From: Bacteroidota bacterium
GTDB lineage: Bacteria > Bacteroidota > Bacteroidia > B-17B0 > Aurantibacillaceae
Assembly: GCA_021155905.1 (NCBI GenBank)
Contig: JAJNBG010000022.1
Coordinates: forward strand, 1 to 64,000
Reading direction: 5' to 3'
DNA: 64,000 bases
Shown piece after piece: positions 3,985 through 17,869 of this stretch. Position numbers and translations under genes: made by a program. Below the pieces are notes generated by a model. It saw only the letters and a program-made list of their open reading frames with translations, did no database searches and was not told the origin of the DNA. Each line of letters starts with the position of its first letter. Positions within the stretch are counted from its first letter, which is position 1.

Positions 3985-4033
3985 GTAGAACGTTAATTAA
4001 AAAAAGCAAATATAATGATTGTAATGTTAATGA

Positions 4034-4795
4034 CTAAATGTCAATCTCCAATCCATCATAAGCCAGCTCAATAAAAGAAGGCAGTTCTTTTGACACTTCT
4101 TCATGCAAACCCAATTGGTGAGAAATATGCGTGAAATAGGCTTTTTCAGGATTGAATTCTTTCATCAGATCGATTGCCTGCTGGAATGTATAATGCGATA
4201 CATGTTCTTCCTTACGAAGCGCATTGATCACAATAATTTTCGAGCCTCTTATTTTTTGCTTCTCATGCTCATTAATAAAATTCGCATCGGTGATATAGGT
4301 GAAATCTTTAATACGATAAGCTTTAACCGGCAATTTATAATGAACCACATCAATCGGCAATAACTCAATATCATTAATTTTCAGATGATTATCAGTTACG
4401 GTGTGCAGATCTATTTCAGGAATTCCGGGGTACTTTTCCTCCGAGAAAATATAGGCAAACTCTCTTTTCAATGCCTGCTGAACTCTTTCGGTAGCATACA
4501 CGGGCATGCGCATTCTATTGAAAAAATTGAAGGCTTTTACTTCATCCAATCCTGCAATATGATCCTTATGTTCGTGTGTAAAAACAACAGCGTCCAGTGT
4601 TTTAATCTTTTTTCTTAACATCTGTTGCCTGAAGTCTGGACCGGAATCAATAACCACTTTTGTTGTATCACTTTCAATTAAAATAGAAGTTCTTAAGCGG
4701 TTGTCCTTAGGGTTTTTAGAATGGCATACGGAACATTCGCAACAAATAATTGGAACGCCCTGTGATGTGCCGGTGCCTAAAAATGTAACCTTCAT
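4034..4795 (-). CDS. MBL-fold metallo-hydrolase, PhnP-like
   Basis: The 253-residue protein is a metallo-beta-lactamase-fold phosphodiesterase-like enzyme. It opens with the FLGTGTSQGVP strand typical of the PhnP/RNase-Z-like subgroup, has a cysteine cluster (C18, C19, C21, C24) matching the PhnP structural zinc site, and carries the active-site motif HEHKDH at residues 74-79. A late metal histidine lies in YFTHISHQLG. PhnP acts on cyclic phosphodiesters, but Bacteroidota homologues are uncharacterised, so no substrate is claimed. Its stop-side neighbour is the rhomboid gene, whose stop is 2 bases before this start, so the two are likely cotranscribed in the order rhomboid then hydrolase. Confidence 0.88.
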   Translation of the reverse strand: MKVTFLGTGTSQGVPIICCECSVCHSKNPKDNRLRTSILIESDTTKVVIDSGPDFRQQMLRKKIKTLDAVVFTHEHKDHIAGLDEVKAFNFFNRMRMPVYATERVQQALKREFAYIFSEEKYPGIPEIDLHTVTDNHLKINDIELLPIDVVHYKLPVKAYRIKDFTYITDANFINEHEKQKIRGSKIIVINALRKEEHVSHYTFQQAIDLMKEFNPEKAYFTHISHQLGLHEEVSKELPSFIELAYDGLEIDI

Positions 4796-4797
4796 TT

Positions 4798-5442
4798 TTA
4801 ATGATTATTAATTAATCTAAGATAAACATCCTGGTTTAGTAATCCTAAAATTAGCGTAAATAAAACACCAAACATGGCACCCCAAAAATGGGCCTCATGC
4901 CCTATCCGATCCACCGAATCATTACCGGTATTTCGTTTACTCAAATAATAACTGATACCTAAATATAAAACACCAAATACCCATGCCGGCATCGGTATAA
5001 AAAAGAATCCCAATTGCGACAAAGGTGAACAGGTAATGAAACTAAAAATCAGCGCATTGACTGCACCACTTGCGCCTAATGATGTATAATCTTCGTAGTT
5101 TTTGTTTTTAAAATATTCAGAAATGGAAGACGCATAAATAGAACCGGTATACATCAAAATGAAAAAGGCATTTCCCATTTTATAATCCGGCTCGCCTATG
5201 TCTCCCAATAACAATGGCAAAACCTGCTTTTCCACAATTGGCCCAAACATCCATAAAGCATACATATTGAATGCCAGGTGAATAAAATCACCATGCAAAA
5301 ATGCATGACTTAAAAAACGATAATGCTGATTGAAATGATTAATAGAAAAAGGATGAAATATATACTTATACTTTATATCATGATTATTCATGGCATACAA
5401 AGAAAATCCAACAGTAAGAATTAATATAGCGTAGGTTATCAT
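4798..5442 (-). CDS. Rhomboid-family intramembrane serine protease
   Basis: The 214-residue protein has six predicted hydrophobic segments and the rhomboid catalytic dyad: Ser125 in LGASGAVNALIF and His184 in GHEAHFWGAMFG. The HAFLHGDFIHLAFNMYALW region is the conserved second-helix/loop block with the HxxxN-type asparagine. Rhomboids cleave substrates within the membrane; the substrate here is unknown. All catalytic elements are present, so the enzyme should be active. It lies 2 bases upstream of the MBL hydrolase, a likely two-gene transcript. Confidence 0.93.
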   Translation of the reverse strand: MITYAILILTVGFSLYAMNNHDIKYKYIFHPFSINHFNQHYRFLSHAFLHGDFIHLAFNMYALWMFGPIVEKQVLPLLLGDIGEPDYKMGNAFFILMYTGSIYASSISEYFKNKNYEDYTSLGASGAVNALIFSFITCSPLSQLGFFFIPMPAWVFGVLYLGISYYLSKRNTGNDSVDRIGHEAHFWGAMFGVLFTLILGLLNQDVYLRLINNH

Positions 5443-16042: not shown

Positions 16043-17029
16043 TTACTTTTCAATCACCAAACGCTCAACCAATTTTTGATTATCGATAACTAATGTCACG
16101 AGATAAATCCCGTTTGATAACTCATTTAAATTAACCGGGATTCTGTAATGTCCTTCATATTGCTTGATTACATCAGAAACTGTTCTGAGTACGATACCAC
16201 TCACGTTTGTAATATCAATTTTAACATCTGACCTCCTGTTAAGCTCGTATGTGATAGTGAATTCCCCATTAGCCGGGTTAGGATAGATACCAAAAGCTGC
16301 GGTTTTTGAAATTGTATTTTCTGTTGTCGTCTTACTGCCAATATTCGATGTCGTATCCTTTTGACCAATAACTGAATCCGTTTTTTCCACATACGGCATG
16401 ATCATCTGTCCCCCAATCATTTCCTCTTGTACAAGTGTCGTTACAACATTTGTCGGTACTTCCTCACATTTCTTTTCTTCAAGCATTAACCCACCATCCA
16501 CATACTCCTCAACATAAGCAATATCACCGGTCATCATACCTTCGACAAACCCTTCTTCAACAATTACCGTGTCCTCAAAGACTGGTCTTTGCAAAGAATC
16601 ATGAATTTGAAATGATGGAGAACCCATGGCATATAATTGCTCTATTGGTTCTTCATTTTTCGGAACTTCAAAACCAATATCACCAAGGGTATGTCCCTGT
16701 TCATCTTTGCAGCTAAACAGAAATGAACCAAAAACTAAAAATACGGCAATCACAAAAGCTTTACTGAGACTGATATTTTTTGGCAGGTCATTTAAATTAA
16801 CCTTTATGTTTAATGGACGATTGACCTGGCTCTTTTTAAAATGCCCACAAACCTTTTGTTCTTTATATTCCAATAAAATGTCCGTGATCTCATCATCGGT
16901 CTTATTGGAAAAATCAAAAACTGCTTTGCTACAGGAACTACAGAATTTACCTTTGGTATCCGGCTGCATGCTATTCCAGTCTTCGTGGCAAGGTTCCGGA
17001 ATACGAATAATTAAATTTGGAGTTTTCAT
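16043..17029 (-). CDS. Membrane protein with cytoplasmic four-Cys module and C-terminal T9SS sorting domain
   Basis: From the ATG at 17029 the product is 328 residues. It has no ordinary signal peptide. Residues 1-90 hold Cys14, Cys30, Cys33 and Cys61 (FCSSCSKAVFDFS, VCGHF), a putative metal-binding module seen in other Bacteroidota proteins. Residues ~90-106 are a single membrane segment ending FLFSC. An acidic low-complexity region follows, and the last ~75 residues are a T9SS type-A sorting domain (FGIYPNPANGEFTITYEL, IDITNVSGIVLRTV, LSNGIYLVTLV). A cytoplasmic N-terminus with a periplasmic sorting domain is topologically odd. A longer start at 17086 adds 19 residues without support. Confidence 0.72.
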   Translation of the reverse strand: MKTPNLIIRIPEPCHEDWNSMQPDTKGKFCSSCSKAVFDFSNKTDDEITDILLEYKEQKVCGHFKKSQVNRPLNIKVNLNDLPKNISLSKAFVIAVFLVFGSFLFSCKDEQGHTLGDIGFEVPKNEEPIEQLYAMGSPSFQIHDSLQRPVFEDTVIVEEGFVEGMMTGDIAYVEEYVDGGLMLEEKKCEEVPTNVVTTLVQEEMIGGQMIMPYVEKTDSVIGQKDTTSNIGSKTTTENTISKTAAFGIYPNPANGEFTITYELNRRSDVKIDITNVSGIVLRTVSDVIKQYEGHYRIPVNLNELSNGIYLVTLVIDNQKLVERLVIEK

Positions 17030-17218
17030 AATTAAGGATTTATAGGTTAGACACAAGAAACTGCATTTTTCCATAAACAATTTCAAAACAAATCTATAAC
17101 CAGCAGAATTATAAAAGATACGGCAATTGGTAAGTGGTAGGAACGAATTAATAAGTGGCTATGAAATCATGGATTGACTAACCGACTAAATCATAAATAT
17201 TTTTTATATTTATCATTC

Positions 17219-17869
17219 ATGAAAAAGTTTAACATTCATATTTTCTTTGCATTTATTATTGTTCTAAGCAGCTGCGCCACCAAACTGCCCGTTGAAAAAG
17301 GATTATTTAAAGAAACTAATTTGGTAGAATTAGTTAAACTGGATTCCACGATTCATTTGGATATACGCTATGCCACACCAAATAATTTTGCAAAGCAGGC
17401 AGTTTACAAAGAAGCCCGCGCCTTTTTGCAAAAAGATGCAGCAGAATCGCTGAAAAGAATCAATGCGTCACTTAAACCTCTGGGTTATGGCCTGTTGGTA
17501 TTTGATGGTTACCGCCCCTGGGATGTCACGAAACTGTTTTATGATATCACGTCTAAAGAAAATAAAAAGTTTGTAGCAGATCCAAAAGAAGGTTCCCGTC
17601 ATAACCGGGGATGTGCAATTGATGTGAGTTTGTATGATTTACAAACAGGGAAAGAAATACCAATGCCAGGTGTTTACGATGAAATGACGGAGCGTTCATA
17701 CGTTGATTATACCGGAGGAACGGAAGAACAAAAAAAAACACGCAATTTGTTAATTGAAAAAATGCAGGCAGAAGGATTTACTGTTTACAAATACGAATGG
17801 TGGCATTTCGACTATAAGGACTGGCAATTATACAGAATCACCAATAAAGCGTTCTCTGAAATAAATTAA
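17219..17869 (+). CDS. D-Ala-D-Ala dipeptidase-like lipoprotein (VanX / M15D)
   Basis: I place the start at the ATG at 17219, giving 216 residues and a lipoprotein signal with lipobox VLSSC (Cys19). The peptidase domain matches VanX/DdpX: LDIRYATPNNFAKQAVY, FDGYRPWDVTKLFYD, the zinc ligands His and Asp in SRHNRGCAIDVSLYD, and the catalytic Glu and zinc His in YEWWHFDY. It should cleave D-Ala-D-Ala or related dipeptides, so its likely job is peptidoglycan dipeptide recycling rather than glycopeptide resistance, since no vanH/vanA genes are nearby. All catalytic residues are present. It is 20 bases upstream of a SpoIIE phosphatase gene. Confidence 0.9.
   Translation: MKKFNIHIFFAFIIVLSSCATKLPVEKGLFKETNLVELVKLDSTIHLDIRYATPNNFAKQAVYKEARAFLQKDAAESLKRINASLKPLGYGLLVFDGYRPWDVTKLFYDITSKENKKFVADPKEGSRHNRGCAIDVSLYDLQTGKEIPMPGVYDEMTERSYVDYTGGTEEQKKTRNLLIEKMQAEGFTVYKYEWWHFDYKDWQLYRITNKAFSEIN

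Follow-up and report, generated by a model that had tools for sequence, protein, structure and literature searches.

The protein encoded on the minus strand at positions 16043 to 17029 of the window (the whole 64,000-nucleotide stretch of DNA that was analyzed) probably carries a cleavable signal whose cytoplasmic extension is a conserved module with four cysteines. It is proposed to be a Sec precursor with a signal peptide whose N-terminal region is unusually long and folded. Residues 1-85 would form a small four-cysteine module that remains in the cytoplasm, residues 88-106 would act as the h-region, and LFSC107 would be the lipobox. Once C107 was lipidated and signal peptidase II had cut before it, the mature product would be a 222-residue lipoprotein, a disordered linker followed by a T9SS sorting domain; the module would stay behind in the inner membrane, joined to the stub of the signal peptide. 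Numerous other exported Bacteroidota proteins appear to begin in the same way, with a site for either signal peptidase I (SPI) or signal peptidase II. It is uncommon, however, for a signal peptide to be preceded by a folded domain, and this counts against the proposal.

The open reading frame begins with ATG and encodes 328 amino acids. An alternative TTG codon 57 bases upstream would give a product of 347 residues. A methionine is present at the position of the ATG-coded residue, or no more than four residues from it, in all 18 aligned orthologs, but this agreement lends the start little weight because a script took the nearest methionine ahead of the motif in each of them. The N-terminal module (residues 1-85, positions 16775-17029) contains C14, C30, C33 and C61 in the arrangement CX15CX2CX27C, with the signature PCHExW..M / G.FC..C.K.V.DF / CG.F...Q, and presumably faces the cytoplasm. 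The only hydrophobic segment spans residues ~88-106 (positions 16712-16768), is modeled by AlphaFold as a helix at 88-105, and is taken to be a Sec signal peptide's h-region. It ends in the LFSC motif (residues 104-107, positions 16709-16720), where signal peptidase II is predicted to cut before C107. The mature region that follows (residues 108-245, positions 16295-16708) evolves rapidly and is mostly predicted to be disordered. The T9SS type A C-terminal sorting domain occupies residues 246-328 (positions 16046-16294), all on the same strand.

The sorting domain is recognized by Pfam family PF18962 at residues 248-326 (E 6.3e-13, 49.3 bits against a cut-off of 27) and by NCBIfam model TIGR04183 (E 1.4e-10, 41 bits against a cut-off of 23). 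Pfam finds nothing else above its cut-offs in the protein, and the NCBIfam matches all fall in the same C-terminal part. An AlphaFold model built on an alignment of 26 sequences contains a small module at about residues 11-70 (block pLDDT 70-83), a disordered stretch at 125-243, in which every residue but one has a pLDDT below 50 (125-137 and 139-243), and a sorting domain of seven strands at 251-328 (block-mean pLDDT 93-97). Foldseek matches this last domain to the T9SS substrate domains 8glk_D and 8qb1_A (NucA and mirolase) and also to the DUF3244 protein 4g5a_A, all with E values below 1e-3. The four cysteines, the one membrane segment and the T9SS sorting domain reported in the initial annotation are thus confirmed. 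Its further statement, the lack of a Sec signal peptide, is correct for the first ~80 residues; further in, a signal-peptide-like segment with a cleavage motif, as judged by motif, lies at residues 88-107 behind the module.

The protein resembles T9SS type A cargo in the sequence and fold of its sorting domain and in the presence of the translocon gene SprA in its genome (TIGR04189, 2414 bits against a cut-off of 200). The same genome (4.06 Mb) encodes at least 150 PF18962 domains, 150 having been scored of 222 candidates. Most of the other cargo of this genome with its start in view carries a short SPI-type signal, however, whereas the signal of the window protein is internal, sits behind the cysteine module and is of lipoprotein type. 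By rule, 39 of 51 other sorting-domain proteins whose start is in view have an SPI signal with Gln, seven have a hydrophobic start with no motif, three have neither and two have lipobox-like matches. This set derives from 70 loci with 67 open reading frames found, and is biased towards signal peptides because start methionines were chosen to favor a hydrophobic start. Both lipobox-like matches (L144 and L177) have an AQ site a few residues further on and are read better as SPI signals than as lipoboxes, so a lipidated cargo would be an exception among the T9SS cargo of this genome. All T9SS effectors are said to have an N-terminal Sec signal in passages of PMC10202324 and PMC12618676.

Representatives of SprA are found in all 42 module-bearing genomes that were searched (18 relatives with orthologs and 24 from a phylum sample). 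In the full phylum sample of 296 genomes, 229 have an SprA match, and a comparison of the two lists by eye places all 42 module-positive genomes among them; 187 of the 254 module-negative genomes match as well. Among the SprA-negative genomes listed, 17 of 20 belong to one family. This co-occurrence is not counted as evidence of a link between module and T9SS, because lineage confounds it.

Cleavage after the membrane segment is predicted from the motif at its end. The 18 close orthologs comprise the window protein and L004-L020, the best 19 matches less the frameshifted L003, and the boundary was drawn after it was seen that the following matches, L021-L031, have no sorting domain. LFSC occurs in 17 of these orthologs and LVSC in one, such that L104, S106 and C107 are invariant. 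C107 is kept although residues 108-120, immediately after it, have a mean pairwise identity of 29%. Like a Bacteroidota lipoprotein, the protein has a hydrophobic segment ending in LFSC and then a polar start. Unlike the usual member of that group, whose n-region is short, it has ~87 residues with a cysteine module before the h-region, and it ends in a T9SS sorting domain.

Cleavage motifs occur throughout the module family. Under a strict rule, they are found in 136 of 147 module proteins, as 73 lipoboxes and 63 SPI-type sites with Gln at +1, and in 56 of 61 representatives that are non-redundant at 60% identity; a loose rule finds a site in 141 of 147. The site is absent from 11 proteins by the strict rule and from six by the loose one. 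Two sets of internal hydrophobic segments served as controls. In unrelated six-frame open reading frames, some of them surely spurious, 2 of 83 segments match under the strict rule and 6 of 83 under the loose one; in non-overlapping longest open reading frames, the counts are 15 of 229 and 21 of 229. Compared at a single hydrophobicity cut-off, 47 of 50 representatives but 2 of 83 control segments have a site (Fisher p 9e-30). At control rates of 2-7% (strict) and 7-9% (loose) a single match means little, and the weight lies in the family-wide count. An earlier version of the rule, applied to 151 proteins, gave 72 lipoboxes, 65 SPI sites, 12 proteins with none and two too short. It was altered after LMNC and LVNC had been seen, and the strict and loose rules were then applied alike to family and controls. 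The reduction from 151 to 147 proteins removed three rows that had no cysteine spacing or were too short and one more below the hydrophobicity floor.

The module profile (A2) by which the family proteins were found does not include the cleavage site. Neighboring paralogs can exchange one type of site for the other at the same place, as in LFGCAQ and LFGHAQ (L025 and L026). The Bacteroidetes Q-rule, as set out in part of PMC5837995, expects Gln at +1 of signal peptidase I substrates, and the agreement of the family sites with it counts in favor of cleavage. Among the 33 members with a sorting domain, the loose rule finds 26 lipoboxes, seven SPI-type sites and no protein lacking a site. The CKDE sequence of the window protein fits a minimal K-(D/E)2 surface export pattern (given in part of PMC5080379), but the pattern occurs in just 2 of 72 lipobox members, and a reading of CKDE as a surface export signal was dropped on that count.

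A plain membrane anchor would need no cleavage motif at the end of its hydrophobic segment, so the family-wide motifs argue that the segment is an h-region and the module an extension of the n-region. This bears on a different reading in which the protein stays uncleaved in the inner membrane: its helix would be a signal anchor, its periplasmic sorting domain would bait or sense the T9SS, and its cysteine module would report secretion status. The topology and the cytoplasmic cysteine module fit such an arrangement, and PorA of Porphyromonas gingivalis (PMC7712824, in part) is a precedent for a regulatory role of a sorting-domain protein in the T9SS. Like the window protein, PorA is a small sorting-domain protein with a non-standard route. 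It has a 27-residue signal sequence, however, and the passages on it in PMC7712824 speak of neither a cytoplasmic module nor a lipobox. PorA is a precedent for regulation and not for the layout seen here. The uncleaved reading also has to contend with the excess of cleavage motifs over both sets of control segments, with the presence of the module ahead of proteins that have SPI sites or that have no sorting domain, and with the absence of a recurrent partner gene beside the close orthologs. It appears very unlikely. A signal anchor that carries a lipobox by chance is possible, and the sorting domain may be used for some other purpose. The initial annotation had offered cleavage after the helix, noting that FLFSC recalls a lipobox, and tethering in the inner membrane as alternatives, beside another use of the sorting domain; the first is favored by the invariant residues and the family counts, which weigh against the second. 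The conclusion that the protein is membrane-tethered with no Sec signal peptide is probably wrong, and with the predicted cleavage a membrane-tethered T9SS cargo probably ceases to be a puzzle.

The module is widespread among the Bacteroidota. Two copies are found in the window genome (93.9% complete), and matches occur in 53 of 100 genomes comprising this one and 99 relatives. In the phylum sample, at least 42 of 296 genomes, its own included, have a match, a lower bound since at most 18 candidates were scored per genome. A scan of species genomes, with a pattern that itself contained C14 and its surroundings, returned 521 relatives; the best 80 of these (L033-L112) were kept and include named Flavobacterium, Tenacibaculum, Kordia, Chryseobacterium, Polaribacter and Aquimarina records. 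Spacing like CX15CX2CX27C is retained in 148 of 151 profile matches before any cysteine filter, and the exceptions include L122, which is cut by a contig end, and L138, a short open reading frame. The rows of alignments A1-A5 were filtered for this spacing, so cysteine invariance in them is by construction. Tandem module proteins are frequent (L029, L068, L070, L083, L108, L115 and L117), and one genome, G034, has 14 module matches.

All 18 close orthologs have the module, the segment and the sorting domain. The combination put forward in the initial annotation does not extend to the family at large, in which most members lack the sorting domain. After the module, Pfam finds PF18962 in 29 of 93 members, CarbopepD_reg_2 in 20, TonB_C in 16, Plug in seven and CHU_C in two, with several domains possible per protein; the 93 are 95 extracted members less the frameshifted L033 and L041, which is at a contig end. 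These domains belong to exported or envelope proteins. Some shorter lipobox members of 200-214 amino acids (L023, L064, L069 and L098) have no sorting domain and a layout near that of the window protein. The motif [M/L/K]G[D/E/G/K][V/I]x[V/Y] recurs in mature parts (for example, in L022, L025, L028 and L060), with 161 matches in 126 proteins compared to 30 expected from shuffles, for a pattern chosen after the sequences had been read and for mature parts of up to 220 residues.

Within the 18 orthologs, mean pairwise identity is 68% in the module (residues 8-72), 72% in the h-region, 44% in the sorting domain and 21% in the linker (121-245). Crude dN/dS values from overlapping pairs, several with dS above 1, are 0.00-0.07 for the module in five pairs, a sixth not being computable because its synonymous sites are saturated, and 0.12-0.31 for the mature part including the sorting domain in five pairs. 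The module, which would be discarded, is thus kept better than the cargo and is among the best-kept parts of the protein. In the nearest orthologous locus (L033, positions 4001-5100, the same gene as L003), the module has 86% identity and is followed by a frameshift before the h-region. The lipobox and sorting domain continue past it in another frame, as would result from an assembly error or from decay.

Selection at the protein level also means that the module is translated. The exported protein might instead start from an internal site with a normal signal peptide, the module being a minor or separate product, and a methionine within 22 residues before the h-region is indeed available in 30 of 148 family proteins. 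The other 118, the window protein included, have no methionine there (GTG and TTG were not counted), and the module keeps its frame and is conserved at the protein level, which makes a downstream start exceedingly improbable.

The module matches no described domain convincingly. In Pfam, the window module scores 14.5 bits with an unrelated family whose cut-off is 25, and in NCBIfam it has no match. For 67 members of the family, the best E values are 0.0021 in Pfam and 0.003 in NCBIfam, spread over 19 and nine unrelated families, respectively. Profile searches of PDB sequences give HMG boxes as best matches (E 0.02 over ~20 residues), which were taken as chance. Modeled alone, the module has modest confidence (mean pLDDT 68). 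Its best Foldseek match has an E value of 3.6, and VIA-align on the Foldseek list gives one chain at Z 2.6, which is not usable; with so weak a model, a missing fold match is no sign of a new fold. One scan confirmed no viral relatives, and no description of the module was found in the open PMC literature. The four-cysteine module is undescribed.

Genes beside the module offer no obvious partner. Neither the neighbor clusters of 80 loci nor Pfam searches of 141 immediate neighbors, in a screen confined to proteins of 90 to 700 amino acids, identified a recurrent partner gene beside the close orthologs. One cluster occurs beside eight close orthologs and L100; it holds unlike proteins, most of which end like sorting domains where ends or starts were looked at, and is taken as joined by that domain. 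A divergent gene for an M15 peptidase (window positions 17216-17869) is common to the window and L033 neighborhoods. At mostly flavobacterial loci, genes for a cytidine-type deaminase (PF00383, 14 of 141 immediate neighbors) and for 1-deoxyxylulose-5-phosphate synthase (PF13292, 13 of 141) adjoin the module gene, for example at L058, L061, L063, L071, L072, L074, L079, L083, L086, L091 and L106.

A further reading is regulated proteolysis of the kind described for RsiV of Bacillus subtilis, in which signal peptidase makes the first cut (PMC6066255, in part). By analogy, signal peptidase would be the site-1 protease, and a site-2 protease would free the module to act on a regulator, with the exported half serving as sensor or merely as trigger. 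RsiV has the same order of parts, a cytoplasmic domain, one helix, a signal peptidase site and an exported domain (again from part of PMC6066255), as does the window protein in its presumed topology, and the better conservation of the module than of the cargo counts in its favor. However, the 25 most frequent of 101 Pfam families in the 141 neighbors include neither a sigma nor an anti-sigma family, and no sigma factor was seen by eye among the 14 largest neighbor clusters. The module has four cysteines and no Pfam match to an anti-sigma domain, and the 521 relatives have unlike exported parts, where one module for many cargoes suggests a shared partner rather than many specific ones. We regard such a pathway as rather unlikely.

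The placement of one module before very different cargoes suggests a role in some step that all of them share. Under the signal-peptide-extension reading, this step would be targeting, insertion or processing at the Sec translocon, and the module would place it under metal- or redox-dependent control. Conservation of the cysteines is what suggests metal binding, for which the initial annotation had named zinc as a candidate. Such control is a tentative proposal, and we put it forward as possible rather than as likely. A more elaborate scheme, which is distinctly unlikely, combines two ideas. Cleavage by signal peptidase followed by intramembrane proteolysis of the stub could release a cytoplasmic fragment that binds metal, and every exported protein of the family would thereby report its own export; in addition, a T9SS-tailed lipobox member could span the outer-membrane translocon, anchored by its lipid at one end and carrying the sorting domain at the other.

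Additions to signal peptides have been described elsewhere. The ESPR of autotransporters is an extended signal peptide, and additions of this type are short peptides. The module resembles them, and the YSIRK/GXXS signals treated as extended signal peptides in part of PMC12004944, in being a conserved addition ahead of a Sec signal peptide. The addition in the window protein is a ~70-residue four-cysteine domain.

Signal peptides are usually short and disposable. If the proposed reading is correct, then in many exported proteins of the Bacteroidota the discarded piece would include a conserved cysteine domain that is kept better than the cargo. What is new is a conserved four-cysteine extension of signal peptides in this phylum, for which no name was found. 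Tools that read only protein starts may call such proteins membrane-bound or cytoplasmic. If cleavage does occur, the set of exported and lipidated proteins of the phylum grows, and the module would provide a handle on export control. A lipobox on a T9SS cargo would likewise provide a test case for the use of the T9SS by lipidated proteins.
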